The notes under the pieces: generated by a model | Databases searched by the model: none | Told to the model about the DNA's origin: nothing | Seen by the model: only the letters and a program-made list of their open reading frames with translations | Source: an uncultured Leifsonia sp. | GTDB lineage: Bacteria > Actinomycetota > Actinomycetes > Actinomycetales > Microbacteriaceae | Assembly (NCBI RefSeq): GCF_945957465.1 | Contig: NZ_CAMFLC010000017.1 | Span: 1-64,000, forward strand | DNA: 64,000 nt | Direction: 5' to 3' | Shown: one piece after another, positions 2,152 through 39,083 of the stretch | How the letters are laid out: each line of letters opens with the position of its first letter | Position numbering within the stretch: the stretch's first letter is position 1 | Position numbers and translations under genes: made by a program

Positions 2152-2290
2152 TCTGCCGATTTCGGCCCGAAGGGTCGCTCCGCGGAGACCGCAGCCGTCA
2201 AGGGTGCGCGCAGCGCATCCCGCAGGGACGCCGGAGGCGCCCTTTACGGCTGCGGGCGGAGTGGAACGCTGGTCCAGCGAAATCGGCGAA
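2152..2290. repeat. Structured intergenic repeat R1 (139 bp), near-identical partner of R2; cloverleaf of GNA-triloop hairpins inside a GCCGATTTCG/CGAAATCGGC outer stem
   Basis: Direct comparison with 6192-6330: same length, no indels, 54-bp core with 2 differences. Confidence 0.85.
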
Positions 2291-2446: not shown

Positions 2447-3922
2447 TCAGTCCTCGACCGGCTCGTCGTCCTCGTCGTCGCTCGACTCAACGGGGGCCGG
2501 GTCGTCGTTCGGCTCGGCGTACCCAGCGGCGATCCGCTCGACCTCGGTGAGGTGGTATCCCCAGGACTCCAGCGTGAGCAGGTAGGCCTCGTCCGTCTTG
2601 TTCGGCTGTCGCCAGGAGAACTCGCTGGTGTGGTTCTCCCGACCCGAGAGGGCGACGGCGAGATTGACGTGCTCGGCCTTCGCCGGGTTGTTCTCGACCA
2701 GGGTCGCCGCCTGGTTGCGCTCGTCGTAGCCCTCCAACCCGAGCAGCTTGCCGAGGATGGAGCTGTGCTCGCTGTTGATCGCCTCGTAGCGGAAGCGCGT
2801 GAGCGTGAAGGCGACGAACACATTCGCGTCGGCCGGGAGCTTCTTGCGGTTGACCAGTTCGCTCAGCCACTGCAGGCGGAGCTTGGTGGCGGAGCGCCAC
2901 ATGCGGTTGTACTTGACGACGCGGCGTCGCTCGCGGCGCTGGGCGTCCTTCTCGGCGTCCAGGCGCGCCTCGCGCTCCTCGTCGGTCTCGTCCACGGGGC
3001 CGGCGGTCGGGCGTGCCACGCTGGTGCCGATGCGCGGCTTGTGAAGCTCCGGGCTGCTGCACAGCTGGTCCAGGCGGTACCCGGTGTCCTCGGTTCCCCA
3101 GACCCGCAGATAGTAGATCGCTCCGGGGCAGGTGGCGTGCGACTCGGCGTCGAGCGAGGGCCGGTCCTCGGCGTCGACATCGGCATCGGTGAGGCTCCAG
3201 AGCTGGACTCCCGCGTTGTAGGAGCTTGCGATGGTCTTGCCCTCGGCCTGCAGCTTGGCGATCAGCGCCTCGGTGTACTCATCGAGTTCGCGGCGGTCGC
3301 GGAGCTGCTGGGCGATGAATTCCAGCTCCTCCTCGTCGGCGTCCGCGATGGCGCAGAGGGCGTCCTCGTCGTCGCCGAACTCGGCGGCATAGAGAGCGCG
3401 GTCGAGGGTGAGCTGGTAGGTGTCGATGGCGCGCAGCGCGACCTCGGACTTGGCCACCTTCACCGCCGCGTTGACATCGTCCTTGGACTGGCCGGTGCTG
3501 CGTGCAATCTTGGCGACGGAGACGCCTTCGAGGGTGAGCTGCTCGACGGCCTTGACGCGGTCGACCAGGTTGAGGTCTTCGCGGGTGAAGGTGCGGAGCT
3601 GGTCCAGGATGCGGTCTGCCTCGCTTCCGCTGTGGTCGCGGAGGCCGAAGACGGCGAGCATCTTCTCGACACCGGCTTCGCGTGCGGCGAGCAGTCGGCG
3701 CTGGCCGTCCCAGACGTACACCTCGCCGTTGTCGCCGCGACGTGCGCGGACCGGCTCCTGGACGCCTACCTCGCGGATGGAGTCGGTGAGGGTGTCGAGA
3801 CCGTCCAGGCGGGAGCGGACGTTGGGGTCCAGCTGGGCGGTTGCGGTGTCGATGACTTCGATGGTGATGGTGCCCGCCTGGATCAGGGCCGGGAGGTCGG
3901 TGTGGGCTTCGTGGGTGTTCAT
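2447..3922 (-). CDS. ParB/RepB-type nuclease-domain protein
   Basis: N-terminus MNTHEAHTDLPALIQAGTITIEVIDTATAQLDPNVRSRLDGLDTLTDSIREVGVQEPVRARRGDNGEVYVWDGQRRLLAAREAG resembles the ParB N-terminal fold, followed by HTH LEGVSVAKIARSTGQSKDDV. Confidence 0.8.
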   Translation of the reverse strand: MNTHEAHTDLPALIQAGTITIEVIDTATAQLDPNVRSRLDGLDTLTDSIREVGVQEPVRARRGDNGEVYVWDGQRRLLAAREAGVEKMLAVFGLRDHSGSEADRILDQLRTFTREDLNLVDRVKAVEQLTLEGVSVAKIARSTGQSKDDVNAAVKVAKSEVALRAIDTYQLTLDRALYAAEFGDDEDALCAIADADEEELEFIAQQLRDRRELDEYTEALIAKLQAEGKTIASSYNAGVQLWSLTDADVDAEDRPSLDAESHATCPGAIYYLRVWGTEDTGYRLDQLCSSPELHKPRIGTSVARPTAGPVDETDEEREARLDAEKDAQRRERRRVVKYNRMWRSATKLRLQWLSELVNRKKLPADANVFVAFTLTRFRYEAINSEHSSILGKLLGLEGYDERNQAATLVENNPAKAEHVNLAVALSGRENHTSEFSWRQPNKTDEAYLLTLESWGYHLTEVERIAAGYAEPNDDPAPVESSDDEDDEPVED

Positions 3923-3999: not shown

Positions 4000-4386
4000 T
4001 CAGTGGGCGGTGACGGCGACCGGTGTCGGCTCGACCGACGCCTCTCGCCAGGCGGTGACGACGGCGATCTGCTGCTCGGTGGTCAGCGAGGTCGGGGTGC
4101 CGTCGGTAGGGTCCACGCCGAGGAACAGACCGCGACCGTGGATCGGTTCGGACCATTCGGGGTACGCCTTGCGGACCATGGCCGCGAGCAGGTGGTTCCG
4201 CTCGGAGCGGTAGGGGCCTTCGTCGTCGATCCAGACCTCGATGCCATCCGCGAAGCGCAGGGCGTACGGCTGTGCCGACTCCACCTGGTCTCGGATTCCG
4301 GCGGCCCGCTGCGCGTCGCTGGTGTTGTCCAGCTTCACGGCGCACAGGGTGTTGTCCAGGTCGATTCGGACGCCAGTGATGATCAT
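4000..4386 (-). CDS. Hypothetical protein, 128 aa
   Basis: Coherent ORF, MIITGVRIDLDNTLCAVKLDNTSD... Confidence 0.7.
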   Translation of the reverse strand: MIITGVRIDLDNTLCAVKLDNTSDAQRAAGIRDQVESAQPYALRFADGIEVWIDDEGPYRSERNHLLAAMVRKAYPEWSEPIHGRGLFLGVDPTDGTPTSLTTEQQIAVVTAWREASVEPTPVAVTAH

Positions 4387-4476
4387 TCGTTCTCCTTCTC
4401 CGTCGATCGTTTTTTGTTGCCATCTCGGCGAGACCTAACCTCTCCGCGGAAGGAGTGGAGGCCATAAGCGGGTTCA

Positions 4477-4550
4477 CTGCGGAGTTGCGGGAAAAGTTTT
4501 GACGGATAAGGCGCTTGCGCCCCGGCAAAAGTTTTCGTGCAACTCCGCAG
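4477..4550. repeat. Structured intergenic element R3: perfect 12-bp outer stem CTGCGGAGTTGC/GCAACTCCGCAG enclosing GGCGC-tt-GCGCC; adjacent GCGCCC-gga-GGGCGC and CCGCC-gca-GGCGG hairpins
   Basis: Inverted repeat read directly. Confidence 0.7.
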
Positions 4551-4748
4551 CGCCCGGAGGGCGCCCCGTTGGCCGGAGCGACTGGAGCGGATAGGTTCGG
4601 GCTGCCGTGAATGGCGGCAAAAGCAAAGAATCAGTGCCGGCCCTGGCCGGCTCCGCGCAGAGATAGGGGTCCGCCGCAGGCGGTCCTCTTCCGTCCTGGG
4701 CTCTGATTGCTGGGCGGCGACGTCGGCGCCGAACGCGCCCCAACGAGC

Positions 4749-5835: not shown

Positions 5836-6147
5836 TCAGATCGAGCGCCAGGCGCCGCTCTCGTCCCGGTACTGGATGGTGACCGCGCCCGCGTTCGGGG
5901 CGCCGTAGCAGAAGAGCGGCTGAAACTCCCACTCGACCGGGTCCCACGTCTGCTCGCGCTCGTCCTCGAGGATGCGCCCGTGGTAGTAGACGAACCCGTC
6001 GTCATCGAGCATCCGGAAGGCCCGGCCTTCCCCGGCGGCGAGCCGGTCGAGCGTGTCCTGCTGCGCGTCGCTCGGTCCCTGAACGCCGAAGCCGTAGCCC
6101 TCCTCGTCCTTCCGGGTGATGACGTCTCGTGTGATGAGGAATGCCAT
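5836..6147 (-). CDS. Hypothetical protein, 103 aa
   Basis: MAFLITRDVITRKDEEGYGFGVQGPSDAQQDTLDRL...; AAGGAGCGGCACATG start context. Confidence 0.7.
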   Translation of the reverse strand: MAFLITRDVITRKDEEGYGFGVQGPSDAQQDTLDRLAAGEGRAFRMLDDDGFVYYHGRILEDEREQTWDPVEWEFQPLFCYGAPNAGAVTIQYRDESGAWRSI

Positions 6148-6191
6148 GTGCCGCTCCTTCCGCTTTTGGTCCGTGGACCCCTGATCGTTCT

Positions 6192-6330
6192 TTTGCCGAT
6201 TTCGGCGCGGAGTGCCGATCCGCGCAGCGGACGGCAGTCAAGGGTGCGCGCAGCGCATCCCGGAGGGACGCCGCAGGCGCCCTTTACGGCCGGGCGTGGA
6301 GCGGAACGCTGGTACAGCGAAATCGGCGAA
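6192..6330. repeat. Structured intergenic repeat R2 (139 bp), partner of R1
   Basis: Same architecture as 2152-2290; similarity continues more weakly to about 6440 (and about 2400 in R1). Confidence 0.85.
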
Positions 6331-6585
6331 GAAGATGCCGCGCCCGGAGGGCGCTCCTTCGCGGGAGCTCCGTCGAGCGCGCCCGGCGAAGCCGGCGTCG
6401 GGAGCGCGAGGGTCGTCCCTCGCCGGCGTCCTGGAAGGCGCCGGGCGCAGCTGAAGGGCTCGTGCCGCGCATAGGTGTAGTGGAGGACGCGCCCGCGCTC
6501 TCCCAGCTGAACACCTAGAACCGCATACAACGGTCGTCTCACACCCGAACGGCCCTTGCCGCGCATAGAAGGAGGGAGAGCGCAT

Positions 6586-6812: not shown

Positions 6813-9800
6813 TCATCGACCGAATCGGCTTCCCGTCGGCCGGCCCTGGCCGGTCGTATGAGGTGAGTTCGGGAGGCGGTTGCTGACCACGCCCGCGTGC
6901 GGTTTGGCCGGGACATCCGGAGCTTGCGGTCGCTCTGCTCCTTCTCTGGCGTCTGCTGCGGCGAGGGCGGCAAGGTCCGCCTCGACCCGGTCGAGACGTT
7001 CCTGAGCCGTCTGCAGCTCGTCGGCGTACTTGAAGGGGCGTCCGATGCGCTGCTCGGCCTCCGCGATCGTCTCCAGGGCTTCAGAGCGGCGCTGCTTCTG
7101 CTCATCGAGCAGACGCGGCAGCGAGTTCGCGAGGTTCTCGAGCCGGGTGACCATGCCGGACATGCCCTTGGTGAAGGAGTCGCGGGTGACGGCGATCGCC
7201 GCTACGGGCGCCTCCGACACCTCGGCGACGATCTGCAGCCCGAGAGTGCTGTACTGCGCGCGAGCGTTGATCGTGTACCCGCCGATCTCCGCCATCGTGC
7301 CCAGCTTGCGGTCGGTGTAGGACGGCAGCGAGGTGATGTAGTTGCGGTTCGCCCAGCTCTGCAGGGCGTCGGCTGCGTCCGTGCGCTTGGTGACGGTGCG
7401 CCCGTCGATGGTGGCCGCGAAGTGGTCGCCGTCCGTCGCGCGGGCCTTGGGGATCGCCGCCTCGAGCTCAGAGATGTTCCTGTCGATCGCGTCGAGCCGT
7501 CCGGTTGCCGATTTCTTCTGGTCGATCATGTTGCGCTGGCTGCGGGAGTGCGCTCGGTTCAGTCGCTGCAGCTTGGCGACCTCGTCGCGGGCGAGCGCCT
7601 GCTCGAGAAGGAGAGGGTTGCCGCTGGACAGTGCCTTGGTCTCGGCTGCGGAGAGGGCGACGTCGCCGATGTCGTCCATCTCGCGCACGTCGAGCTTGCC
7701 GCGCATGATCTGGGCGATGAACTTCGCCTTCCGTTCAACGGCCTGCCACATGTAGGCGTCGAAGGATCCCTCGACCACGTACCGGTGGATCTCCACCTCG
7801 CTGTTCTGGTTTCCCTGTCGAACGATCCGGCCGTCGCGCTGCTGGATGTCGGCCGGGCGCCACGGGCAGTCGACGTGGTGGAGTGCGATCGCGCGGGCCT
7901 GGACGTTCGTCCCGACGCCCATCTTCTGGGTCGATCCGAGGAGGACCGCCACGTGGCCGGCGCGGGCGGCGGCGAAGAGGCGTCCCTTCTCGGCGTCGTT
8001 CTTCGCCTGGTGGATGAACCGCACCTGGTCGGCGGGCATCCCGCCTGCGACCAGCAACGACTTGAGCTCGTTGTAGGCATCCCAGCGCTGCGGGTCCGGC
8101 GTCCCGAGGTCGCTGAACACCAGCTGCAGCGCGCCGGGCACTTCGGAGAGCTGCCCGCTGACGGTGTCGGTGTAGCGGTTGCCGCGGTTGGCCTCCCAGA
8201 TGGTGAGGATCTGCGAGGCGACGGCCGTGAGCTTGTTCTGGTCGGTCTGCTCATCGAAGCCGACCATGCGCATGTCCAGCGCGGCCTTCCGCCCATCGGT
8301 GGAGATTTTGAGCATGTTGTCGACCTCGGGCTTGACCATCTTGTTGGCCACCTGATCGGCGCGCTCGGCGATGTTCTCGATGTAGCGCTGCAGCAGCGGG
8401 GTGGGCGCCAACACGTGCGTGACGGGCAGCCGCTGCCCGTCAGGGCGTTCACGGAGGTCCGGGGTCGGGAGGTTGAGGTCCTCCGCGGTCTTCACGTCCG
8501 CGAACACGTGCCACATGCGCAGCATCTCGGGGACGTTCTGGAACTTGGCGAACCTGGTCTTCAGGCGGAAGTTGCCGCCGCCGGTCGGAGCCATCTCCAT
8601 CTCGGTCACGGTCTGGCCGAAGGTGGCGGCCCAGGCGTCGAAGTTGTGGACGCCGGCATCGCGCAGCAGGTCCGGGCGCAGGTACCGCTGCATGACGTGG
8701 GCCTCGGTGACGCTGTTGGCGATCGGCGTGGCCGTGGCGAGGGTGGCGACGCGGCCGCCGTGGCGGTGGCGGAGGTACTCGAGCTTCATGTGCAGGTCGG
8801 TGGCCTTGCCAGCGCCGGCGATGGATGCGCCGTCGATGTTGGAGTCCGTGGACAGGTTCTTGTACTCGTGCGCCTCGTCGACGATGACATAGTCGATGCC
8901 GGTCGAGTCGAAGGTGATGCCGGGATCCCGGGGGCGGTCGATCATCGCCTTCTGCTTCTCCTCCAGCCGCAGCAGCTTCTTCTCCAGCTGCTTGGTGGTG
9001 AGGCGGTCCTCGGCCTGGGAGCTTTCGACGACGGCGCGCAGCTCGTCGACGGCGCTCTGGATGTACTCCTGCTCGAAGTCTGGGGAGACAGGCAGGCGCT
9101 CGAACGCGGTGCGGGTTGCGATGATGGCGTCCCAGTCGTTGGCCGCTGCGCGGGCGACGAATAGGCGGCGCTTGTCGCCGGTGAGGTCGTCACTGGAGGC
9201 GGCGAGGATGCGTGCCTGGGGGTAGATCTGAAGCCACTCTCGGGCGAACTGCTCCAGCATGTGGTTCGGCACGACGACGACGGGCTTGGTGATGAGCCCC
9301 ATTCGCTTGAGCTCGGTGGCGCCCATGACCATCTCGGCGGTCTTGCCGGCTCCCACCTCGTGGAAGAGACCAACCGCGGGTTCAGCGATCATCCGCGCGA
9401 CGGCCGCCCGCTGGTGAGCGCGCGGGTTGAACGTGGCGGACATGCCGGGGAAGGTGAGGTAGTCGCCGGCGTCCGTGTAGTCGCGCAGCACGATCGAGTT
9501 GAAGCGGCGGTTGTACTCCTCCGTGAGGCGGGCTGCGCGGTCGGAGTCCTCCCAGACCCATTCGGAGAAGCGCTCCTGCATCTTCTCGGCCTTTTCGGTT
9601 GCCGCCTGCGTCTCCAGCGGATTCAGCACTCGACGGGTGCCCTCGGAGGTCTTGATCTCGTCGTAAACGGTCAGGCTGCGCTGCTCGAGCACGGCAGCTG
9701 CGATGTCGGGGGCCGGCCGTCGGGTGGTGCCCCACTCGTCGGTGGCGAGGATAGTGCGCCGGTTGCCGCGAACATCCCAGGTGCCCGGCAACGGGTTCTC

Positions 9801-12500
9801 CACGGTCAGGGACCGATCGCGCAGGATCTCCTGCAGGAACTCGAGGTGGGTGCCCTCGTCGATCCACACGGCGCCCATACGCGCCTGGATATCCTCCATG
9901 GTCAGAGGTGCGGGGATCACCTTCTCGAGTGCTTCAACGTTGGGACGGAACGCGGGATCCTCGGTAGCGGCCTGGCGGGCGGCGTCGAGCTTGACCCGGA
10001 CGTCGCCGGAAAGATATTCGGCGGCCGCGACCAGCTCGTGGCTGACCGGGTCGTCATAGACCAGGGATCCGAGCGCGGTGCGCGCCTCCGCCTCTTCTTC
10101 ACCGAGCAGATGAGCGATGGTCGGCAGGTCGATGCGGCCCAGACGGTCAAGGCTGACGGCGATCGCCTCGGCCGGGGTATCGACTCCCTGCACCTCGGGT
10201 CGAGTGCTCACGACCCGTTGGGTCAGGATCGCGGCGGGCTGCGCGATCTGCTTCTCTTCATCGAACAACTCGAGCGCCATGACCACAGGGCCGAACGGAT
10301 CGGAGCGGAGGATGCGGGTAGCGGTCGGGGAGACCCGTGCCAGGGTCTCTTCTCCGGTCTCCGGATCCACGCGGCCGGTGTTGCGGAGCGTGAAGCGGTT
10401 GAGCGGCCCGTACTTGGCCGTGTAGGCGTCGTACTGCGACCGCAGGTCACTGCGCGCGGCCGCGAGCTCTGCGGTCTCCTCGCGAGTTCCTGCCTCGGTC
10501 TCGAGCAGCTGCTTCGCGGTATCGCGGAGGCGCAGCAGGTGCCGCAGCTCGACGGAGACGGTCTTCGGGACCTTCAGCGGGTGCTGGCTGCCGCGCTCGA
10601 CGGTCGTGAACGTGCCATCGGGCTGCGCCAGGATTGTGCCGTCCCAGAGCGTGGCGTCGGCGGGCCGGTAGGCCGCGAGCTGCGCCTCGGAGCGCTCGGA
10701 ACGAGGGGTCATCAGCTGGCCGTTGTGTCGGGCATCGGCGACGACGCTGTCAAGAGCGCGCTCCAGTCGTTCGGGCACGGTCGCCAGATCCGACGTCACG
10801 TGGAGCGTGTCGTTGCCGAACATGCCGGTGCCGACGCTCAGCTCACCGAGGATGTGCTCAGGGCGCGTGTCGAAGTACGCGTTGATCTTGACGACGCTCT
10901 CTCCCACCTTGTGAGCGGAGACGGTCTCCCAGATGTCGGAGCGGGGCGGCTCGCCGACCTCGCGGCGACGGAAGATGAGGAGGTCGGTGACGACCTCGGT
11001 GCCGGCGGTCCGTCGGTGGGCTCCGGTGGGCAGGCGGACGGCGCCGACCAGGTCGGCCAGCTTGTTCATCTCTCGGCGCGCGGCGGGGTTCTGCGCGTCC
11101 ATCGTGTACGAGCTGGTGAGGACCGCAACCAGGCCTCCGGGGCGCGTGAGCGCGAGGGACTTGATGATGAAGTGGTTGTGCAGCGAGTGACGGCCCGCGT
11201 TGTGGATCGGGTCGTGGAGCTGGACGTTCCCGAAGGGGACGTTTCCGACTGCAGCGTCGAAGTAGCCCTCGGGCAGCTTCGTATCAGCGAACGACTCGGC
11301 GCGGATCTCCGCGCCCGGGTAGAGCGCGGCAGCGATGGTGGCGCTGGTCTGGTCGAGCTCGACGCCGACCATCCGCGCGTGCACAGGTGCCATCCCGATG
11401 AAAGTGCCGGATCCCGCGCCGGGCTCGAGCACCGTGCCGCCCTGGAAGCCGAGAGTGCGCATCGTCGACCAGATCGCCTCGACGTACGCGGTGTCCGTGT
11501 AATGGGCGTTGATCGTCGTGCGCCGGGCCTGGGAGTACGCCTCCTCGGAAAGAAGCGACTGCAGGAGGGCACGTTCGGTCGACCAATTCGCCTTGCTCTC
11601 GTCGAAGACGTCGGGGACGGCTCCCCATGAGGAGAACCGCGAGAGAATGACCTGCTCGCCGGGGGTTGCCGGTCGACCCTCGCCAGCGAGCCGGTTGGCG
11701 ACGCGAATGGCGTCGATGTTGGCGTCGAAGCGAGCCTTCGCGCCGCTCGGGGTGAGGTGGTCGCCGGCGTGCGGACGGAACGCTACTGGGGCGTGCTCGC
11801 CTTCCACCGAGCGAACCGTGCCGCCTCCGACTGCTGCAAGGTCTCCGTGCTGTTCAACAGGAACGTATACGGCTGCTCCTGCTCCACCAGGTGCTGCAGG
11901 AACGTGCGATCCAGCATCCACTCCTCCGCGACCATCTCGATCGGCTTCGCCCAGTCGGCCCCGTCCCTGGTCGCTTCCGCCCAGTCCGCCAGCGAGTCCA
12001 GCGACGGTTGCGTCGCCGCCCAGTTCTCCCGTACCTCCGCGTCCGTCTGCTCGGGCTGAACGGTCACCAGGTTCTCCCAGGCCACTTCCTCCGCCTGCTT
12101 CCGGGCGGCGTTCAACCGTCCGACCTTCTCCAGGTAGCTCTCGCCCTGCCTGTCCGGACCGGCCAGAGTCTGCTGCAGCTGGTCGACGACCGTCAGCATC
12201 TCCTCGCCCAGCTCCGTGAAGTACGTCTCCGGATCCTCGATCTGCCGATACTGCGTCGGAGCTACCCTCCGCCAGTGGTCCTCGATCCGCGTCCCGTACT
12301 GGTTCATCCGTCTCTCCTGCCGTTTGCTTGAAGAAGTCGTCAAAGCTCAACTGGCCATCGATCAGCGCCGCCTCGGTGCTGCTCGGTGCCGCCTCGCGTG
12401 CGTCGGTGACGCGTGCATCGGCGGCCTCTTCGGCCAATCCCCACAGGTCCAGTTCGACCTGATCGTTGGGGGTGGTCTTCTTGGGTCGTCGGCCAGCCAT
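6813..12500 (-). CDS. Very large N-6 adenine methylase / SNF2-type helicase, putative antirestriction or DNA-modification protein (DarB-like architecture)
   Basis: Methylase motifs VLEPGAGSGTF and AVGNVPFGN; helicase motifs GLFHEVGAGKTAEMVMGA, IVDEAHEYKNL, LATATPIANS, QQRDGRIVRQGNQ. N-terminal region overlaps another ORF (see findings). Confidence 0.85.
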   Translation of the reverse strand: MAGRRPKKTTPNDQVELDLWGLAEEAADARVTDAREAAPSSTEAALIDGQLSFDDFFKQTAGETDEPVRDADRGPLAEGSSDAVSADRGSGDVLHGAGRGDADGRRPAAADSGRSGQAGRELPGEGRTVERRPEAGGGSGLGEPGDRSARADGRGGTGELGGDATVAGLAGGLGGSDQGRGRLGEADRDGRGGVDAGSHVPAAPGGAGAAVYVPVEQHGDLAAVGGGTVRSVEGEHAPVAFRPHAGDHLTPSGAKARFDANIDAIRVANRLAGEGRPATPGEQVILSRFSSWGAVPDVFDESKANWSTERALLQSLLSEEAYSQARRTTINAHYTDTAYVEAIWSTMRTLGFQGGTVLEPGAGSGTFIGMAPVHARMVGVELDQTSATIAAALYPGAEIRAESFADTKLPEGYFDAAVGNVPFGNVQLHDPIHNAGRHSLHNHFIIKSLALTRPGGLVAVLTSSYTMDAQNPAARREMNKLADLVGAVRLPTGAHRRTAGTEVVTDLLIFRRREVGEPPRSDIWETVSAHKVGESVVKINAYFDTRPEHILGELSVGTGMFGNDTLHVTSDLATVPERLERALDSVVADARHNGQLMTPRSERSEAQLAAYRPADATLWDGTILAQPDGTFTTVERGSQHPLKVPKTVSVELRHLLRLRDTAKQLLETEAGTREETAELAAARSDLRSQYDAYTAKYGPLNRFTLRNTGRVDPETGEETLARVSPTATRILRSDPFGPVVMALELFDEEKQIAQPAAILTQRVVSTRPEVQGVDTPAEAIAVSLDRLGRIDLPTIAHLLGEEEAEARTALGSLVYDDPVSHELVAAAEYLSGDVRVKLDAARQAATEDPAFRPNVEALEKVIPAPLTMEDIQARMGAVWIDEGTHLEFLQEILRDRSLTVENPLPGTWDVRGNRRTILATDEWGTTRRPAPDIAAAVLEQRSLTVYDEIKTSEGTRRVLNPLETQAATEKAEKMQERFSEWVWEDSDRAARLTEEYNRRFNSIVLRDYTDAGDYLTFPGMSATFNPRAHQRAAVARMIAEPAVGLFHEVGAGKTAEMVMGATELKRMGLITKPVVVVPNHMLEQFAREWLQIYPQARILAASSDDLTGDKRRLFVARAAANDWDAIIATRTAFERLPVSPDFEQEYIQSAVDELRAVVESSQAEDRLTTKQLEKKLLRLEEKQKAMIDRPRDPGITFDSTGIDYVIVDEAHEYKNLSTDSNIDGASIAGAGKATDLHMKLEYLRHRHGGRVATLATATPIANSVTEAHVMQRYLRPDLLRDAGVHNFDAWAATFGQTVTEMEMAPTGGGNFRLKTRFAKFQNVPEMLRMWHVFADVKTAEDLNLPTPDLRERPDGQRLPVTHVLAPTPLLQRYIENIAERADQVANKMVKPEVDNMLKISTDGRKAALDMRMVGFDEQTDQNKLTAVASQILTIWEANRGNRYTDTVSGQLSEVPGALQLVFSDLGTPDPQRWDAYNELKSLLVAGGMPADQVRFIHQAKNDAEKGRLFAAARAGHVAVLLGSTQKMGVGTNVQARAIALHHVDCPWRPADIQQRDGRIVRQGNQNSEVEIHRYVVEGSFDAYMWQAVERKAKFIAQIMRGKLDVREMDDIGDVALSAAETKALSSGNPLLLEQALARDEVAKLQRLNRAHSRSQRNMIDQKKSATGRLDAIDRNISELEAAIPKARATDGDHFAATIDGRTVTKRTDAADALQSWANRNYITSLPSYTDRKLGTMAEIGGYTINARAQYSTLGLQIVAEVSEAPVAAIAVTRDSFTKGMSGMVTRLENLANSLPRLLDEQKQRRSEALETIAEAEQRIGRPFKYADELQTAQERLDRVEADLAALAAADAREGAERPQAPDVPAKPHAGVVSNRLPNSPHTTGQGRPTGSRFGR
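11783..12307 (-). CDS. Nested gene, 174 aa (MNQYGTRIEDHWRRVAPTQYRQIEDPETYFTELGEEML...)
   Basis: AGGAGAGACGG-ATG start signal; high GC3 in this frame, not in the enclosing frame; natural amino-acid composition. Confidence 0.75.
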   Translation of the reverse strand: MNQYGTRIEDHWRRVAPTQYRQIEDPETYFTELGEEMLTVVDQLQQTLAGPDRQGESYLEKVGRLNAARKQAEEVAWENLVTVQPEQTDAEVRENWAATQPSLDSLADWAEATRDGADWAKPIEMVAEEWMLDRTFLQHLVEQEQPYTFLLNSTETLQQSEAARFARWKASTPQ

Positions 12501-13369: not shown

Positions 13370-14635
13370 TCACCGTGCGTGCGCGGTGACCAATTCCGCC
13401 CAGTGCGTCGTCGCTCTGGGGGAGAGCATCTCCCGTCGCATCTCGAAGCCGGCTCCGAGGCGCATTCCCGCCATGCCGAGTCCGATGACCTGCTCGCCGT
13501 GGCGGCGGTGCACCTTATCGAGGAGGTCGCCAACTCCGCGGTGGTCGTAGCTCGGCTGGAACATCGGGAGGAAGGAGTGCGAGCTGGCGGGGGAGAGTGC
13601 GTTGAGCATGACGCCGGCGCGGACGTACTTGACGCCGGGTCGCAGCTTGTCGCGCAGGCTCCCCGCGGCGGCCTTGGCGATCGCCACCGGGTCGTCGGTC
13701 GGCATCGCGAACGCTGCTTGCCCCCAGGCGGAGGTGTAGTTGTCCGCGTACGGCGAGGACGCAGCGAATGCCGAGACGAGGCCGGCAACGGACTTCTCCC
13801 GTCGCATGCGGGCCGTGGCGCGCTGCGCGTACACGGAGAGCACGTGCTCTACGGTGGCGGGATCGGTGACCGGGTGCCCGAACATCCGGGAGGAGATGAT
13901 CTGCTGCTTCGCCTTCCGCTCCGGCTCGATCTCAATGCAGGAGATCCCGTTGAGCTCGTAGACGATGCGCTGCACGACGACGCCGAACGCCTTTTTGATC
14001 ATCGCCGGGTCAGCGTTCTTGAGGTCCAGCATCGTGTGGATGTTCCGCTCGGCGAGCCGTCGCTCGAGGCGGCCGGCGATACCCCAGGTTTCGCTGGTCG
14101 GGTAGGAGGCGAGGATGCGCTCCTGCTGCTCGGCGGAGTAGTCCGTCCACGCGCAGACACCGTCCAGCTGCTTGTTTCGCTTGGCCCCGTGGTTGGCGAG
14201 CTTCGCCAGGACCTTGCTCGGCCCGAAGCCGACCGACACCGGGAGCCCGACGTGGCGACGCACGGCATGGCGGATGTCTCGGCCGAGCTGCGCGAGGTCG
14301 GTGCGTTCCTCGTTGACGTGCAAAAAGCACTCGTCGATGGAGTATTCCTCGACCCAGGCTCCGAACCGCCCGACCAGCTCGTGCATGCGGGCGCTCAGGT
14401 CGCCGTACAGCTCGTAGTTGCTGGATTTCGCGGTCAAATTCCAGTGATCAGCGGCGCCCTTGATCTTGAACCAGGGCGTCCCCATCTTGATGCCGAGGGC
14501 CTTCGCCTCGGCCGAAAGCGCAACGACGCATCCGTCATTGTTGGACAGCACGACGACGGCCCGCGAAGCGAGGGAGGGGTCGAACACCCGCTCGCAGCTC
14601 GCGTAGAAATTGTTGCAGTCGACGAGTCCGATCAT
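13370..14635 (-). CDS. umuC: Y-family DNA polymerase, UmuC-like
   Basis: [67 protein letters not shown]. Confidence 0.92.
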
Positions 14636-15084
14636 CGGTGGCGGTGGATGTTGAAGGTGACGACGCCCCAGATCACCATCTCGGTCTCGCCTTCGAGCGG
14701 GATGGATCGGAACGCGGGGTTCTCGGCGCGGAGGATCCAGCCACCGCTCGAGCGCGCGAGCGTTTTCAGCGTCAGTTCGCCGTCGACGATCGCGACTACG
14801 ACGTCGCCGACGTCGGGTTCGATGCTGCGGTCGACCAGGATCTGGTCGCCGTCGAAAATGCCGGCCCCGATCATCGAGTCGCCGGCCACGTTCAGGATGA
14901 ACGTCGAGGTCCGGTCGAGGATCAGATTCTCGTTGAGGTCGATGGGACCCCGGTAGTGGTCCTGGGCAGGGGAGGGGAAGCCCGCCGAGACGGCGGCCGA
15001 GACCGGAGTGAGCACCCCACCTGGTGGAGCGAGCTCGTCGACCCGCCCGAGGACCTGCAGCACGGCGACTCCATCTTTGAACAC
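14632..15084 (-). CDS. umuD: UmuD-like S24 peptidase
   Basis: [24 protein letters not shown]...[33 protein letters not shown] overlap with umuC. Confidence 0.9.
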
Positions 15085-15100
15085 TCGAACGTTTGTTCGA
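15085..15100. promoter_or_regulatory. LexA/SOS box TCGAAC-GTTT-GTTCGA
   Basis: Perfect match to the Gram-positive/actinobacterial LexA palindrome at the umuD start. Confidence 0.85.
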
Positions 15101-15184
15101 TACTGGGGAGTGTACGTCGCACCATCGACACGTCAAAAGTGGACAGGCGCGGGCTTGTCTGCATCACGCCACAGGGAGGTCAGA

Positions 15185-18024: not shown

Positions 18025-18633
18025 CTAGATGACGGTCAGAGACTTGAGCGTGGGTGGGCCGGCGACGACGATGCCGGACGCTTCGCAGGCCTCCGGGCCG
18101 GTCATGTGGCGCGCCTCAGTGAAGCGTGGGCCCGGCGAGCCGGCGCTACCGAACAGCGCCAGAGCCGTCGCGCTTCCGGTGGTGTAGGCGGAGGCGTAGT
18201 AGATCCCCTCGAACGAGTTGGCCTGGATGGTCTCAGCCCACTGCTGCGGGATCGCGTAGTTCTCCATGGTGACCAGCTCGCGGACGATCCCGAATCGGAC
18301 CGCGCGCTCGGAGCTGACGGCAGCGCACTTGTAGTCGACTGGTGCTGCCATGGTCGAGACCTGGAAGGAGTCGGCTAGCGCTCGCGAGACGACATTCGAC
18401 TCGCTCACGGCGTCTCGGACCTTCTCGCGCACCGCGGTCTCGACCTTCGTAGCCGCGTAGCAGGTTCCCGACGGGGCCGGGAGGTTGAAGCGGCCGTTGC
18501 GACTGCTATCAAACCACCATGCGCCGCGCGCAGTGTTGTGCGCCCGGTACATCTGGGTCTCCGCGGACACTGTGTGTCGCGGCATCCTGCGGTAGTCCTG
18601 CCCTGGGACCGGCGCCCCTTGAGTGGCGGTCAC
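18025..18633 (-). CDS. RES-domain toxin
   Basis: YRAHNTARGAWWFDSSRNGRFNLPAPSGTCYAATKVETAVRE matches RES pattern; overlaps partner gene (ATGA). Confidence 0.8.
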   Translation of the reverse strand: MTATQGAPVPGQDYRRMPRHTVSAETQMYRAHNTARGAWWFDSSRNGRFNLPAPSGTCYAATKVETAVREKVRDAVSESNVVSRALADSFQVSTMAAPVDYKCAAVSSERAVRFGIVRELVTMENYAIPQQWAETIQANSFEGIYYASAYTTGSATALALFGSAGSPGPRFTEARHMTGPEACEASGIVVAGPPTLKSLTVI

Positions 18634-21582: not shown

Positions 21583-21869
21583 GGCGCGCCCGGATCGTGA
21601 GTGTGTGCAGCAATGTGGTCGATTAGCTGTGACCACGCCGAGTGGGCCTGACCGACGTCTAGGTACCTTCCAAGTCGCCAACGCCCTTCGGGCAGCCCCT
21701 GAAGCTTGTAGTCGACCACCAGCTCGACGTCATGCTCGCCCTGCAGGGTGACCGGAATGAGACTGGTGATGTGGTCTGGGTTGATCCAACGCGACGGCGG
21801 CGGCCCTCCGAGGGCGGCATGCACCAGCGGTGCGTCCGCAGCTGCCGGCGGGATCGGGATGAGCGCCAC
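21579..21869 (-). CDS. Hypothetical protein, 96 aa
   Basis: ATGA overlap with HNH-like gene. Confidence 0.6.
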   Translation of the reverse strand: MALIPIPPAAADAPLVHAALGGPPPSRWINPDHITSLIPVTLQGEHDVELVVDYKLQGLPEGRWRLGRYLDVGQAHSAWSQLIDHIAAHTHDPGAP

Positions 21870-21935
21870 GCGCCACAGCGTAGCGGTAGCCCGCGCAGCC
21901 TCCCCGTTTCAGGTGGTCGGCGGTACGGTCGTGCC

Positions 21936-23813
21936 ATGCCAGCGACACCGCTTGTCGACGTCGACGGCAGACGTTTGCGCCTAACGAACCTGGATAAGGT
22001 GCTGTACCCGGAGACGGGGACCACCAAGGGCGATGTCATTCACTACTACGCGACCATCGCACCGGCACTCCTCCCCCACCTGGCTGAGCGCCCAGTCACG
22101 CGCAAGCGCTGGCCTGACGGCGTCGGTTCGGCCACCGCGCCCATCGAGGCATTCTTCGAGAAGGATCTCGGCATGGGCGTGCCGAATTGGGTGCTGCGCC
22201 AGACGATCCTTCACTCCGGCGGCGAGAAGCGCTATCCGGTGGTCACCGATCGCGCGACGCTCGTCTGGCTCGCGCAGAGCGCGGCGCTCGAGCTGCACGT
22301 GCCGCAGTGGCGCTTCGACACTGATCGCCGGCCGACGCGGATGGTGCTCGACTTCGACCCTGGAGAAGGAACCGGTCTTGCCGAGTGCGCTCAGGTGGCG
22401 TTGTGGGCGAAGGCGATCCTCGACGACATGGGGCTTCCGACTTTCCCCGTGACTTCCGGCAGCAAGGGCGTCCACGTCTATGTTCCTCTCGATGGCCGGC
22501 TCTCCTCAGACCAGGTGTCCGACGTCGCCCGCGAGCTCGCTCGGGCGCTTGAGGCTGACCACCCCGCCGAGGTGATCTCGACCATGCCGAAGGCACGTCG
22601 AGTGGGCAAGGTGTTCATCGGCTGGTCCCAGAACAACGCCAAAAAGACGACCATCTCCCCCTACTCGCTGCGCGGCACCGCGCGACCGTTCGCGGCCGCG
22701 CCTCGCACCTGGGAAGAGATTGCCGCACCAGGACTCGAGCAGCTGGACTTTTCCGAGGTCCTCGACCGATTCGAGGATGCGGGTGATCTGCTTGCCGCCC
22801 TCGACCACTCCCCCGCTGTACGCCCGCCTGAGCCTCTGCGAGGCCAGATCGACCTAGCTCTCGCCAAAGCCTCCGAACGCGTCCCAGAAGCCGCAGCGCT
22901 GCCCGGAGGAAGCCGTTACGAGCCGAAGCTGGACGGTTGGCGGACTGCGGCGGTCGTCGACGTCGACCGGGTGACACTCTGGTCGCGCCAGAAAACGAAC
23001 CTAACCGAAGCGTTCCCCGACGTCGCCACGGCGATCGCCGAGCAGGCGGATGCCGGCGTCGTCCTCGACGGCGAGCTCGTGCGCTGGAACGACGGGCGAC
23101 TCGAGTTCGACGCCCTGCAGCGCCGTTTCGCCTCAGGCAAGCAGCGCCGCCGGCAGCTGGTCGATGAGGAACCGATCGACTTCGTGGTCTTTGACATCCT
23201 CGCTGCAGGTGGCCGCGACCTGCGCGGCCTGCCCTACGACGAACGTCGCCACGCCCTCGAACAGCTCGCGGCCGGCTGGCGGCCGCCACTGAGCTTGATC
23301 GCCGCCACTACCGATGCCGATGAGGGCAGGAGGTGGTTCGAGGAGTTGACCGTCCGCGGGATCGAGGGCGTGGTGGTCAAGGGCGGCGCGCAGCCGTACC
23401 GCGGCGGCCAGCGCGATTGGATCAAGGTGAAGCACCGCGACACATTTGAAGTCGTTGCGGGCGCGGTCACCGGTACGTTGACTCAGCCGGGCGAGCTGAT
23501 CCTCGGTCGGTTTGAGGGCGACGAGCTGCGGATCATTGGCCGCACGACACCCCTGCGGCCTACGGCTGCCCGCGCGCTCACTCCCCTACTGCGACCCGCA
23601 CCTGCGGATCATCCGTGGCCCGACGTCATCTCGTCTCGCACCTACGACCGCTTCCAGCCCAAACGCGAAACAAAGCTCACGCTGATCGAGCCACTCACTG
23701 TCGAAATCTCTGCGGACACTTCGATCGTTGGCGGCACAATTCGCCACGCAGCACGGTTCGTCAGGGCTCGCCCAGAGGTATCTCCCGACGAGGTGAGTTG
23801 GCCGCGCTCCTAA
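21936..23813 (+). CDS. ligD: LigD-like polymerase + ATP-dependent DNA ligase
   Basis: LTNLDKVLYPETGTTKGDVIHYY (LigD polymerase domain); GGSRYEPKLDGWRTAAVVD (ligase motif I, EPKLDG); EGVVVKGGAQPYRGG. Confidence 0.88.
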   Translation: MPATPLVDVDGRRLRLTNLDKVLYPETGTTKGDVIHYYATIAPALLPHLAERPVTRKRWPDGVGSATAPIEAFFEKDLGMGVPNWVLRQTILHSGGEKRYPVVTDRATLVWLAQSAALELHVPQWRFDTDRRPTRMVLDFDPGEGTGLAECAQVALWAKAILDDMGLPTFPVTSGSKGVHVYVPLDGRLSSDQVSDVARELARALEADHPAEVISTMPKARRVGKVFIGWSQNNAKKTTISPYSLRGTARPFAAAPRTWEEIAAPGLEQLDFSEVLDRFEDAGDLLAALDHSPAVRPPEPLRGQIDLALAKASERVPEAAALPGGSRYEPKLDGWRTAAVVDVDRVTLWSRQKTNLTEAFPDVATAIAEQADAGVVLDGELVRWNDGRLEFDALQRRFASGKQRRRQLVDEEPIDFVVFDILAAGGRDLRGLPYDERRHALEQLAAGWRPPLSLIAATTDADEGRRWFEELTVRGIEGVVVKGGAQPYRGGQRDWIKVKHRDTFEVVAGAVTGTLTQPGELILGRFEGDELRIIGRTTPLRPTAARALTPLLRPAPADHPWPDVISSRTYDRFQPKRETKLTLIEPLTVEISADTSIVGGTIRHAARFVRARPEVSPDEVSWPRS

Positions 23814-35526: not shown

Positions 35527-36714
35527 ATGACTCTGCTCGAAGACACCTATGCACCGGCGGTCGCCCCGGCAGTCCCAGCGACGGAGACCCCGTTCGACGC
35601 GGCCCTGGCGCAAATCCGGGACGGGTCACTCTCCGACTACACCGGCGATGTGTTGTCTGCGCTGATCGAAGCCGGAAGCCATGACGTCCACCTGACCATG
35701 AGCTCCGGCAAGGCCGGCACCCGTCAGATGCGGGTGCAGGTGCGATTCGAGGGCGAGATTCACGACGTCGTTACCTACGACGCGGAGGCTTCTGCTCGCC
35801 TGTTCGGCTCCGTCAAGAACCAGGCCGCCCTCGGAAGTCAGGCAGACTCGCCCAACTCCGTTAGCGGCAGCCTGCGCTTCACCCACAACGGGCGCGAGGT
35901 ACGGGCTCGCGCCGAACGACTCCCGCTCGTCGACGGAGGGGAGAAGGTGAACCTGCGTCTCCCGGAGTCTCGTCCGCTCCGTTCCATCGACGAGCTCTCC
36001 TTCACGACCATCAACCGGGCGCAGGTGGACGCGTGCCTCCGCATGCCGCGTGGCCTGTTCCTCGTCGCTGGGCCGATGAACGAAGGCAAGTCATCCACGG
36101 CGCAGACCCTGCTTCTGGACACCCTCAACCGGATCGGGGGAATAGCCGTGTCGGTGGAAGACCCGCCGGAGCGCATCCTCCCGGGCGTCGACCAGATCCC
36201 AGTCGTCGACACCGGAGACGCGGCCGCTACCTACGCGCACCACCTCGAGCACATCGTCCGGTCCGATGCCGACGTCATCTACATTGGCGAGATCCGCAAT
36301 GCCGCGACTGCGCGCATTGCGCAGCAGCTGTCCGAAGCGGGACGGCTCGTCATCTCCACGATCCATGCCAATGACGGCCTGACCGCGATGCGACGCATGC
36401 TCGAACTTTCCGAAGCGCCGCCCCTGGCGACCCTCAGCAGCATCATCGGCGTCCTCTCGCAGCGCCTCGTGCGCAAGGTGGCCTCCCGCGACGCTGGCAG
36501 GCGATACGTGGGGCGGCAGCCCATTCACGAAGTCCTGGTCAACAACGACCAGCTCGTCGACGCCATGGTCGAAGGCACGTCCGCCAGCGTGCTGCGCCAG
36601 ATGACCGCGGCCGCGTCCACGTCATTCGACCAGAACCTGCAGGAGCTGATCCGCGCCGGCGTCACCGATCAGGATCAGGCCGTGCGCACCATCGGCCGAG
36701 AGGTCGCCCTGTGA
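35527..36714 (+). CDS. PilT/GspE-family ATPase 1
   Basis: FLVAGPMNEGKSSTAQTLL; VIYIGEIRNAATARIAQQLSEAGRLVISTIHAND. Confidence 0.88.
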   Translation: MTLLEDTYAPAVAPAVPATETPFDAALAQIRDGSLSDYTGDVLSALIEAGSHDVHLTMSSGKAGTRQMRVQVRFEGEIHDVVTYDAEASARLFGSVKNQAALGSQADSPNSVSGSLRFTHNGREVRARAERLPLVDGGEKVNLRLPESRPLRSIDELSFTTINRAQVDACLRMPRGLFLVAGPMNEGKSSTAQTLLLDTLNRIGGIAVSVEDPPERILPGVDQIPVVDTGDAAATYAHHLEHIVRSDADVIYIGEIRNAATARIAQQLSEAGRLVISTIHANDGLTAMRRMLELSEAPPLATLSSIIGVLSQRLVRKVASRDAGRRYVGRQPIHEVLVNNDQLVDAMVEGTSASVLRQMTAAASTSFDQNLQELIRAGVTDQDQAVRTIGREVAL

Positions 36715-37817
36715 GCATCGCCCAGATCACCGAATGGATCGACCGCTTCGGCCGCGCGGACTACTCCGACCTACACCTGCTGGAGGGCCGCGCATTGTTC
36801 GCTGTGAAGCACCAGCAGACCCTCGCGGCGACCGAGGAGCCCCGGCTGGCCGATCATGCGGTCCGGGAGCTGGCGGACCTGCTCGTGCCCGGCGGCGCGT
36901 CCGCCCTGAATGCGAGCGGCTCGAAGCAGGCATTCGCATCGTTCGACGGCGGTCAGGCATTCCGTGCCCGCGTGACGTTCCGTACGGAGCTCGGCGGCCT
37001 CATGGCCACCTGCCGGCTCATCAACCGCTCTCTCCCGACGATCGAGAAGCTGGGGATCCCGTGGGCCATCGTCGAACAGGCAACCCAGCCCTCCGGGCTG
37101 ATCCTGTTCGCCGGGCCGACCAACTCCGGCAAGTCCAGCGCAATCGCCGCGATCGTCAACGCGATCAACCTCGAGCACGCCGTGCACATCACCACCATCG
37201 AGGAGCCGATCGAGTTCCAGTACCCGCACGCCACTGCCCTGGTGACCCAGCGGGAGGTGGGCACCCACGTCGACAGTTATGCCTCTGCCATCGAGAGCGC
37301 CAAGGGCGCGAATCCGCGCATCATCGTCGTGGGCGAGATCCGCAACACGGCGATCGCCAAAGCGGCGCTGTCAGCGGCGCTCTCCGGTCACCTGGTCATT
37401 TCCACCGTCCACGCCGGATCGGTCGAGGATGCCATCGCCGCGATGATCGCCTACTACCCGGCCGATGAGCAGCACCTGGCACGCGTCCAGCTCGCCCAGG
37501 CGCTGCGCACCGTCGTCGTTCAGAACCTTGTGCGCAAGGACGGCCCTTCGGTCGGCCACGACGAGCATCCTCTGGCCATGGTGCGCGAGTACGCCTTCAA
37601 CGACCTCTCCCTGGCCGCCATGATCCGCGGCGGATCCGGCAGCGACCTGCATCACATCCGGCAGCACCTCCACGGAGAGGGCCGGAAGCGGGGAATGGTC
37701 ACCAAAGAGGCGTCGCTGGCCGAGCTGGTCCGCGCCGGGAAGCTCAACGAGGCCACCGCGCGTGCACAGCTGACCGACCCCGACCGGCTCACGTCGGCGC
37801 TGCTACGGGCGGCCTGA
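36711..37817 (+). CDS. PilT/GspE-family ATPase 2
   Basis: LFAGPTNSGKSSAIAAI; TTIEEPIEFQYPH; IIVVGEIRNTAIAKAALSAALSGHLVISTVHAGS. Confidence 0.9.
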   Translation: MSIAQITEWIDRFGRADYSDLHLLEGRALFAVKHQQTLAATEEPRLADHAVRELADLLVPGGASALNASGSKQAFASFDGGQAFRARVTFRTELGGLMATCRLINRSLPTIEKLGIPWAIVEQATQPSGLILFAGPTNSGKSSAIAAIVNAINLEHAVHITTIEEPIEFQYPHATALVTQREVGTHVDSYASAIESAKGANPRIIVVGEIRNTAIAKAALSAALSGHLVISTVHAGSVEDAIAAMIAYYPADEQHLARVQLAQALRTVVVQNLVRKDGPSVGHDEHPLAMVREYAFNDLSLAAMIRGGSGSDLHHIRQHLHGEGRKRGMVTKEASLAELVRAGKLNEATARAQLTDPDRLTSALLRAA

Positions 37818-37848
37818 CTCCGGAGGCATTCGCTCAGAGCACGAAAAC

Positions 37849-37887
37849 GTGCTGAGTGCGCGGGCAGGCACATCTAGAGGTGAAGGC
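37849..37887 (+). promoter_or_regulatory. Promoter-like motif copy 2
   Basis: gtgctgaGTGCGCG-ggcaggca-CATCTAGAGGTGAAGGC. Confidence 0.75.
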
Positions 37888-37922
37888 GAAGGAACAAGCA
37901 GCCTGCACCCGGAAGGAAGCCC

Positions 37923-39083
37923 ATGAGCGACGTACTCACTCTCGCCCGCCCGAGCGATCCCGCACCCGAGGCATCCTCGGACGTGACCATCGCGGCTCCT
38001 GCAGCTGAGGCCACGACGGACGCGCGAAAGAAGCGCCGACGCAAGACGCGGCCCCAGGACATGGCCCGCGTCCTGAAGGATCTCGCCAATCAGCTCGAGG
38101 CGGGTGTGCCCGAACGGGATGCATTGCAGAAGCTGGGGGAGCGGTCCAGCTCCGAGGTGATCGCCAGGTCGTACCTCGCAGCTGCCAAGGCCATGGATGC
38201 TGGCGACTCCATCGCCGACGCCCTCGGCGCGCAGACGGCCATCATCCCGCCGGTGGCGCGCGAGCTCATCAAGGCGGGTGTGACGCCGGCGACGCTGCAC
38301 GCCAACCTGCGGCGCGCTGCAGAGAACATCATCAAGTCGGCCGACGTGCGCGGAACGCTCAACCGGCAGCTGCGCAAGCCGATTGGCCTCCTGGCGCTGA
38401 CCATCGCCACGTTCTGGGGCATCATCTCCTTCGCCTTCCCGGACACGACGACGATGGGCAGCCAGACGGAGCTGATCATCCAGATCATGCGTGCGACAGC
38501 CAACACACTGGTGGTCGCCACGATCGCGGCACTGGTCATCGGCCTCGCCGTCCGCGCCTGGTGGAAGGCGTCCGGCAGCAAGAACCCGGCCTACCAACTC
38601 AAACTCGACCGGCTCCAGTTCCGGATCCCCACGGTCCGGGACATCCTGCGCCTGGACGCGGCATCGAAGCTGAGCGCGGTCCTGGCGGCCGCGCTCGACG
38701 CGGGACTGCCCGAAACAGAAGCGCTCCGGATCGCAGGGGAGGCCTCCGGCAGCCCCGCCGTCGCCCACCATGTCGCCGCTCACCTCGAGCGGATGGAGAA
38801 GGACGGTGCGCCACTGGTGGAGGTCCTCGACACCGAATACCTGCCCTGGACTCTCGCCGACCGAGTTGCCGGGCAGCTGACCCCCGCCAAGCGCGCCGAG
38901 GTGTTGTTCGCCTGCGCCGATGACTTCCAGACGCAGGCGTTCGAGGAGATGGCGGACTTTGGCAAGAAGGTCGCCGATCGCGTCGAGACCACCAGTCTGG
39001 TGCTGCTCGGAGCGATGATGATCGCGGTCATCGTCCCCCAGGTCATGGCGATTCTGTTCCAGGTGCAACAGATCAATGTCTGA
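37923..39083 (+). CDS. PilC/GspF-type inner-membrane platform protein
   Basis: Duplicated T2SSF-like halves; gene context. Confidence 0.82.
   Translation: MSDVLTLARPSDPAPEASSDVTIAAPAAEATTDARKKRRRKTRPQDMARVLKDLANQLEAGVPERDALQKLGERSSSEVIARSYLAAAKAMDAGDSIADALGAQTAIIPPVARELIKAGVTPATLHANLRRAAENIIKSADVRGTLNRQLRKPIGLLALTIATFWGIISFAFPDTTTMGSQTELIIQIMRATANTLVVATIAALVIGLAVRAWWKASGSKNPAYQLKLDRLQFRIPTVRDILRLDAASKLSAVLAAALDAGLPETEALRIAGEASGSPAVAHHVAAHLERMEKDGAPLVEVLDTEYLPWTLADRVAGQLTPAKRAEVLFACADDFQTQAFEEMADFGKKVADRVETTSLVLLGAMMIAVIVPQVMAILFQVQQINV

Follow-up and report, generated by a model that had tools for sequence, protein, structure and literature searches.

We analysed two elements in the probable leading region of a Leifsonia plasmid, R2 and R3, and consider it fairly likely, judging from sequence and predicted folds, that they serve in the recipient as promoters on single-stranded DNA (ssDNA), and probably also as primer sites. 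By computation we observed a conserved fold, a strand bias of its loops, a promoter signature at fixed spacing, an open -10 hexamer, placement upstream of leading genes, and a circular MOBF plasmid as carrier. The family to which R2 and R3 belong is predicted to comprise Frpo-like single-strand promoter and primer sites with a GNA cloverleaf cap upstream of the -35; its members probably fold in ssDNA and rebuild a promoter there, so that incoming plasmid DNA would be readable before the second strand is present.

Plasmid setting and features

The window is the whole stretch of DNA that was analysed (64,000 nucleotides), and positions refer to it unless a contig or locus is named. The contig is 69,389 bases long with an end overlap of 55 bases, giving a circle of 69,334 bp. 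At about 64-66.3 kb of the contig, immediately ahead of the leading region, the - strand encodes a MOBF relaxase; the genes that follow it across the contig joint into the window are likewise all on the - strand and code for ArdC, small proteins, a ParB-like protein, DUF3846 and DUF6349 proteins and an 1895-aa SNF2 protein. In the usual geometry of conjugation the transfer genes enter last, and from this geometry and the position of the relaxase gene we infer that R1-R5 lie in the leading region and that it is the + strand which is transferred. A similarity search for oriT upstream of the relaxase gene returned short matches only. Leading regions carry anti-defence and establishment genes, which the ArdC, ParB-like and SNF2 genes resemble (PMC11541004). 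Five hairpins, R1-R5, occupy this region, each upstream of a - strand gene start; R2 precedes a leading gene with its start near 2081 (-) and R3 a 103-aa gene at 5836-6147 (-). The features are as follows.

231-1100, - strand: ArdC-like anti-restriction gene of the leading region (Pfam ArdcN, 4e-14)
1126-1288, + strand: R1, a hairpin of the related "type A", situated upstream of ardC (DNA fold z -3.8)
1241-1246 and 1262-1267, + strand: TTGCGC and TAGAAT of R1, separated by N15, read from the sequence
About 2150-2292, + strand: whole folded element R2 (DNA fold -56.3 kcal/mol, z -6.2, 0/200 shuffles)
2155-2164/2278-2287, + strand: outer stem of R2, read from the sequence
2197-2247, + strand: R2 cloverleaf, with closing arms GTCAAGGG (2197-2204) and CCCTTTAC (2240-2247) and three abutting GNA hairpins
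2243-2248, + strand: candidate -35 of R2, TTTACG, on the 3' arm; the facing arm has CGTCAA, which is TTGACG as template
2265-2270, + strand: candidate -10 of R2, AACGCT, at spacing 16, predicted unpaired
2447-3922, - strand: ParB-like leading gene (Pfam ParB_N)
4411-4622, + strand: R4, hairpin upstream of the DUF3846 gene at 4000-4386 (-) (DNA fold z -8.2)
4569-4574 and 4592-4597, + strand: TTGGCC and TAGGTT of R4, separated by N17, read from the sequence
About 6190-6332, + strand: R3, the second cloverleaf element (DNA fold z -3.2)
6237-6287, + strand: R3 cloverleaf core with closing arms, from the sequence and the structure search
6283-6310, + strand: candidate promoter of R3, TTTACG-N16-AACGCT, read from the sequence, with the same signature as R2
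6813-12500, - strand: 1895-aa SNF2/helicase protein of the leading region (Pfam SNF2-rel_dom, Helicase_C)
Contig about 68,744-68,910: R5, a near-copy of R1 just outside the window

The plasmid also carries genes for a UmuC-like polymerase (13370-15136), a RES-domain, toxin-like protein (18025-18633) and a LigD-like primase-polymerase/ligase (21732-23813), and a secretion ATPase pair (T2SSE) with a T2SSF gene (35527-39083) that forms a Tad-like or transfer-related cluster.

Structure of the cloverleaves

Both cloverleaves reported in the preliminary description were recovered letter for letter (2200-2244 and 6240-6284), and the two copies differ, as it had claimed, only at loop centres, in 2 positions. 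The 45-nt cloverleaf that it drew is present in folds of the full-length element and backed by covariation, but the isolated 45-mer has another fold as its nearest-neighbour minimum; the closing stem also exists, but is really 8 bp long (GTCAAGGG/CCCTTTAC) with one C-T mismatch in the window plasmid. What had been overlooked is that each cloverleaf is the apex, a mere cap, of a larger hairpin of about 140 nt with -35/-10 signals.

We then searched both strands of all DNA collected for the structure, blind to its sequence, requiring a closing stem and three abutting hairpins of which at least 2 had GNA triloops. Only R2, R3 and true homologues, located in other plasmids, were returned, with closing arms all of the GTCAAGGG/CCCTTGAC type, which excludes chance.

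Distribution and covariation of the family

A covariance model built from the cloverleaf gave matches in 78 of the 395 Actinomycetes genomes searched and in further genomes of the same phylum outside this class. The window's own genome holds three further copies, at L079:9005 (C32), L080:7163 (C4) and L081:4910 (C53), the first of which resembles the arrangement in a Leifsonia MOBP plasmid. A search of viral contigs with one exact core pattern gave no match.

In the model alignment 98.2% of cells were paired and G-U cells were almost absent (about 8/1186); double changes numbered 115 vs 30.6 in shuffles (0/500), and slid controls fell far below the real alignment in covariation. Since this alignment was fitted to the model, the covariation counts lean its way; a separate parse of the cores, which admits Watson-Crick pairs only, agrees with them. 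This parse gave 53 distinct cores in which most loops were GNA, with all four N occurring, on 22, 10 and 7 different stems. The stems of homologues thus vary with compensation, the opposite of the uncompensated change that would have spoken against structure, and this supports the earlier proposal of selection on the folded form. A simple mobile repeat lacking structure is ruled out by the same covariation.

Promoter signature and predicted folding

On the 3' arm of the cloverleaf family, TTGAC followed after 15-18 nt by NANNNT was present in 24 of 35 non-redundant elements, with 10 of the NANNNT cases at spacing 16 and 9 at spacing 17 vs 0.76 per other position; the 5' arm read outward had no NANNNT peak. 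WANNNT at 16-18 occurred in 8 elements (shuffle mean 0.72). An early impression that the cloverleaf family had no -10 came from a query with TANNNT only and was discarded, as NANNNT peaks. NANNNT was picked after TANNNT alone had given little, so the held-out set matters: in this previously unused set, tested afterwards and including other classes, 6 of 8 elements had the signature. A second core common to many leading-region hairpins, type A, carried TTGNNN-N16-TANNNT on the 3' arm in 10/10 found.

By partition-function folding we obtained 27.0 pairs with an element's own 5' arm and 13.7 with a swapped foreign arm; pairing was 0.65 in the spacer, 0.13 at the A of the -10 and 0.58 downstream. 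As modelled, the layout is that of a promoter pre-melted at the -10 and existing only in the fold, the -35/-10 pair being rebuilt inside the hairpin at the level of sequence signature and predicted fold. The -10 of R4, predicted to be mostly paired, counts against the promoter reading.

Strand bias of GNA loops

GNA hairpins were counted at a stem of at least 5. In the leading region of the window plasmid, 12 fell on + and 0 on -. Across seven annotated plasmids of other strains, in which we counted hairpins between co-oriented genes, intergenic GNA hairpins were on the template strand in 39 cases and on the coding strand in 3 (sign test 3e-9, the elements being partly homologous and the cases not all independent), with C-G closure in 37/39 and 0/3 respectively. 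An independent set of ardC loci showed a weaker bias (16:6). GNA loops, and with them the fold, thus fall on the strand that templates the leading genes (12:0; 39:3), which would also be the transferred strand. Because the GNA loops come with a C-G closing pair and on one strand only, and G-U pairs are almost absent, a structure formed in ssDNA is favoured over one in RNA. In the F plasmid at 52.0-66.0 kb (L169), five GNA triloop hairpins (stem at least 5 bp) were seen on the transferred strand and one on the other; hairpins of this kind may mark transferred strands more generally.

Proposed mechanism

In the proposed mechanism, the transferred + strand would enter the recipient as ssDNA and each segment of about 140 nt would fold on itself. 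The GNA cloverleaf would nucleate and cap this fold at the upstream edge of the -35 duplex, which its own closing stem (TTGAC type) would provide; GNA loops are exceptionally stable in DNA. Pairing of the two arms would form the spacer duplex but spare the -10 hexamer in the 3' arm, which would stay unpaired. The host's RNA polymerase, carrying its housekeeping sigma factor, would bind and, with the 5' arm as template, transcribe away from the element into the left-hand gene. Once the DNA had become double-stranded, the fold would be lost and the promoter switched off. That + is the transferred strand, that polymerase recognises the fold and that expression follows entry is what we infer.

Relation to known systems

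The claim that no named element has this design was not supported, being preceded by Streptomyces telomere overhangs (PMC4513846) and single-strand promoters (PMC9849209; PMC11541004). The latter are a known class of leading regions, Frpo (PMC9849209; PMC11541004). Like Frpo/ssi of F and ColIb-P9, R2 and R3 are long imperfect hairpins duplicated a few kb apart, probably in a leading region and upstream of putative establishment genes, Frpo being active on the transferred strand and rebuilding -35 and -10 in ssDNA; unlike them, our elements are actinobacterial, with a GNA hairpin cloverleaf as cap, a -10 predicted to be open and covariation across a phylum. BLASTN of the F region upstream of ssb against the window gave 17-nt matches only, and the R1 model had no match in the F leading region. 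The best reading is that the elements would work like Frpo with unrelated sequence. We found no description of actinobacterial single-strand promoters among the open-access papers searched. Work on single-strand promoters has centred on enterobacterial plasmids.

In the 3' overhangs of Streptomyces telomeres, hairpins are packed together and sheared G:A pairs close their GCA loops (PMC4513846), so this structural vocabulary is known. Palindromes II-III of these overhangs are, like our elements, tightly packed ssDNA hairpins with GCA loops, but they sit at replicon ends and are bound by Tap/Tpg, whereas ours carry the promoter signature and R2 and R3 are internal in a circularising contig. Small hairpins with GNA-type loops on the template strand are also the promoter signal of the virion RNA polymerase of phage N4. 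The N4 promoters differ in having a single hairpin and a phage polymerase as reader, and no N4-type polymerase was recognised among the annotated genes of the window plasmid.

Alternative explanations

The nearest rival, which we regard as possible, is a single-strand initiation site for complementary-strand synthesis, at which the fold would recruit RNA polymerase (or primase) for a primer on incoming or displaced ssDNA and expression would be secondary; one fold may also combine both functions. With flanking genes called by a simple GC-frame method, the left gene across the whole family starts at the element in 16 cases and ends there in 16, and the right gene in 12 and 19. Transcription of the neighbouring gene is therefore not a family-wide rule, and primer synthesis would be indifferent to orientation. 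In MOBP plasmids, moreover, a single cloverleaf is flanked by a serine recombinase gene and by mobC and occupies the other strand than the type A elements, presumed to be the retained one; this favours a primer site and counts against a promoter. The loci are as follows.

L009:31157-31207, L010:25794-25844 and L044:19895-19945: MOBP-type single cloverleaves by a serine recombinase gene near mobC

Frpo itself is called both promoter and primer site in the title of Masai & Arai 1997, as cited in PMC11541004. Against a primer site stand the location, here and in type A, tightly upstream of leading genes and on their template strand, and the number of sites, as five in about 7 kb exceed what a primer origin needs.

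Unlikely, in our judgement, is that the elements are the ends of mobile gene cassettes, that is, terminal inverted repeats for a recombinase or transposase. This reading draws on a Streptomyces-like genome, G538, in which inverted pairs of cloverleaf hairpins bound eleven cassettes of about 1.1-3.8 kb.

L082, L083, L099-L103 and L105-L108: cassette loci of G538

Their cargo is unrelated from one cassette to another (NUDIX, HAD, APH, GntR-UTRA, DDE transposase), and in the pairs whose two ends were compared these proved nearly identical (up to about 96%). One pair lies between genes that are adjacent in congeners lacking it, so in G538 the element acts like a terminus of an inserted cassette; copies elsewhere are found near integrases and serine recombinases. 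R2 and R3, however, are direct rather than inverted and enclose several operons, many genomes have one or few copies, no transposase is common to the cassettes examined, and the -35/-10 signature and open -10 would be left unaccounted for.

We find even less probable an ordinary promoter in duplex DNA with an extruded hairpin, firing rightward. The same -35/-10 hexamers would read rightward in duplex DNA, and at phage N4 promoters supercoiling extrudes C(GNA)G hairpins. Gene orientation disfavours this reading, as the genes whose 3' ends lie to the right of R2 and R3 are directed towards these elements, and across the family only 12/31 right-hand genes begin at the element; the matched 5' arm and the open -10 would also be purposeless. 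A structured RNA, whether a leader of the leading-gene mRNA or an antisense RNA, is very improbable, as although the element lies upstream of start codons and its RNA forms fold too, an Rfam scan of the window gave 0 matches above the gathering score, loops of the sense RNA would be UNC, G-U pairs are scarce and GNA occurs on the non-mRNA strand only.

Significance

The reading of R2 and R3 as single-strand promoters does not explain the orientation neutrality outside plasmid leading regions or the inverted ends in G538, and these facts, with the MOBP copies, would allow for a wider role in elements that have an ssDNA stage. We tentatively suggest, as a somewhat improbable extension, that the cloverleaf-capped elements are phylum-wide ssDNA promoter/primer modules serving conjugative plasmids, integrated elements and also undescribed mobile cassettes that pass through ssDNA, in which the inverted pairs would provide both strands with a GNA cloverleaf close to their 3' ends.

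If the promoter reading is true, a covarying family across Actinomycetota would extend entry-coupled early anti-defence expression to a major phylum, its GNA loops, marking the transferred strand, would supply a sequence rule for transfer polarity, and the elements would offer biochemistry a compact, pre-opened promoter.
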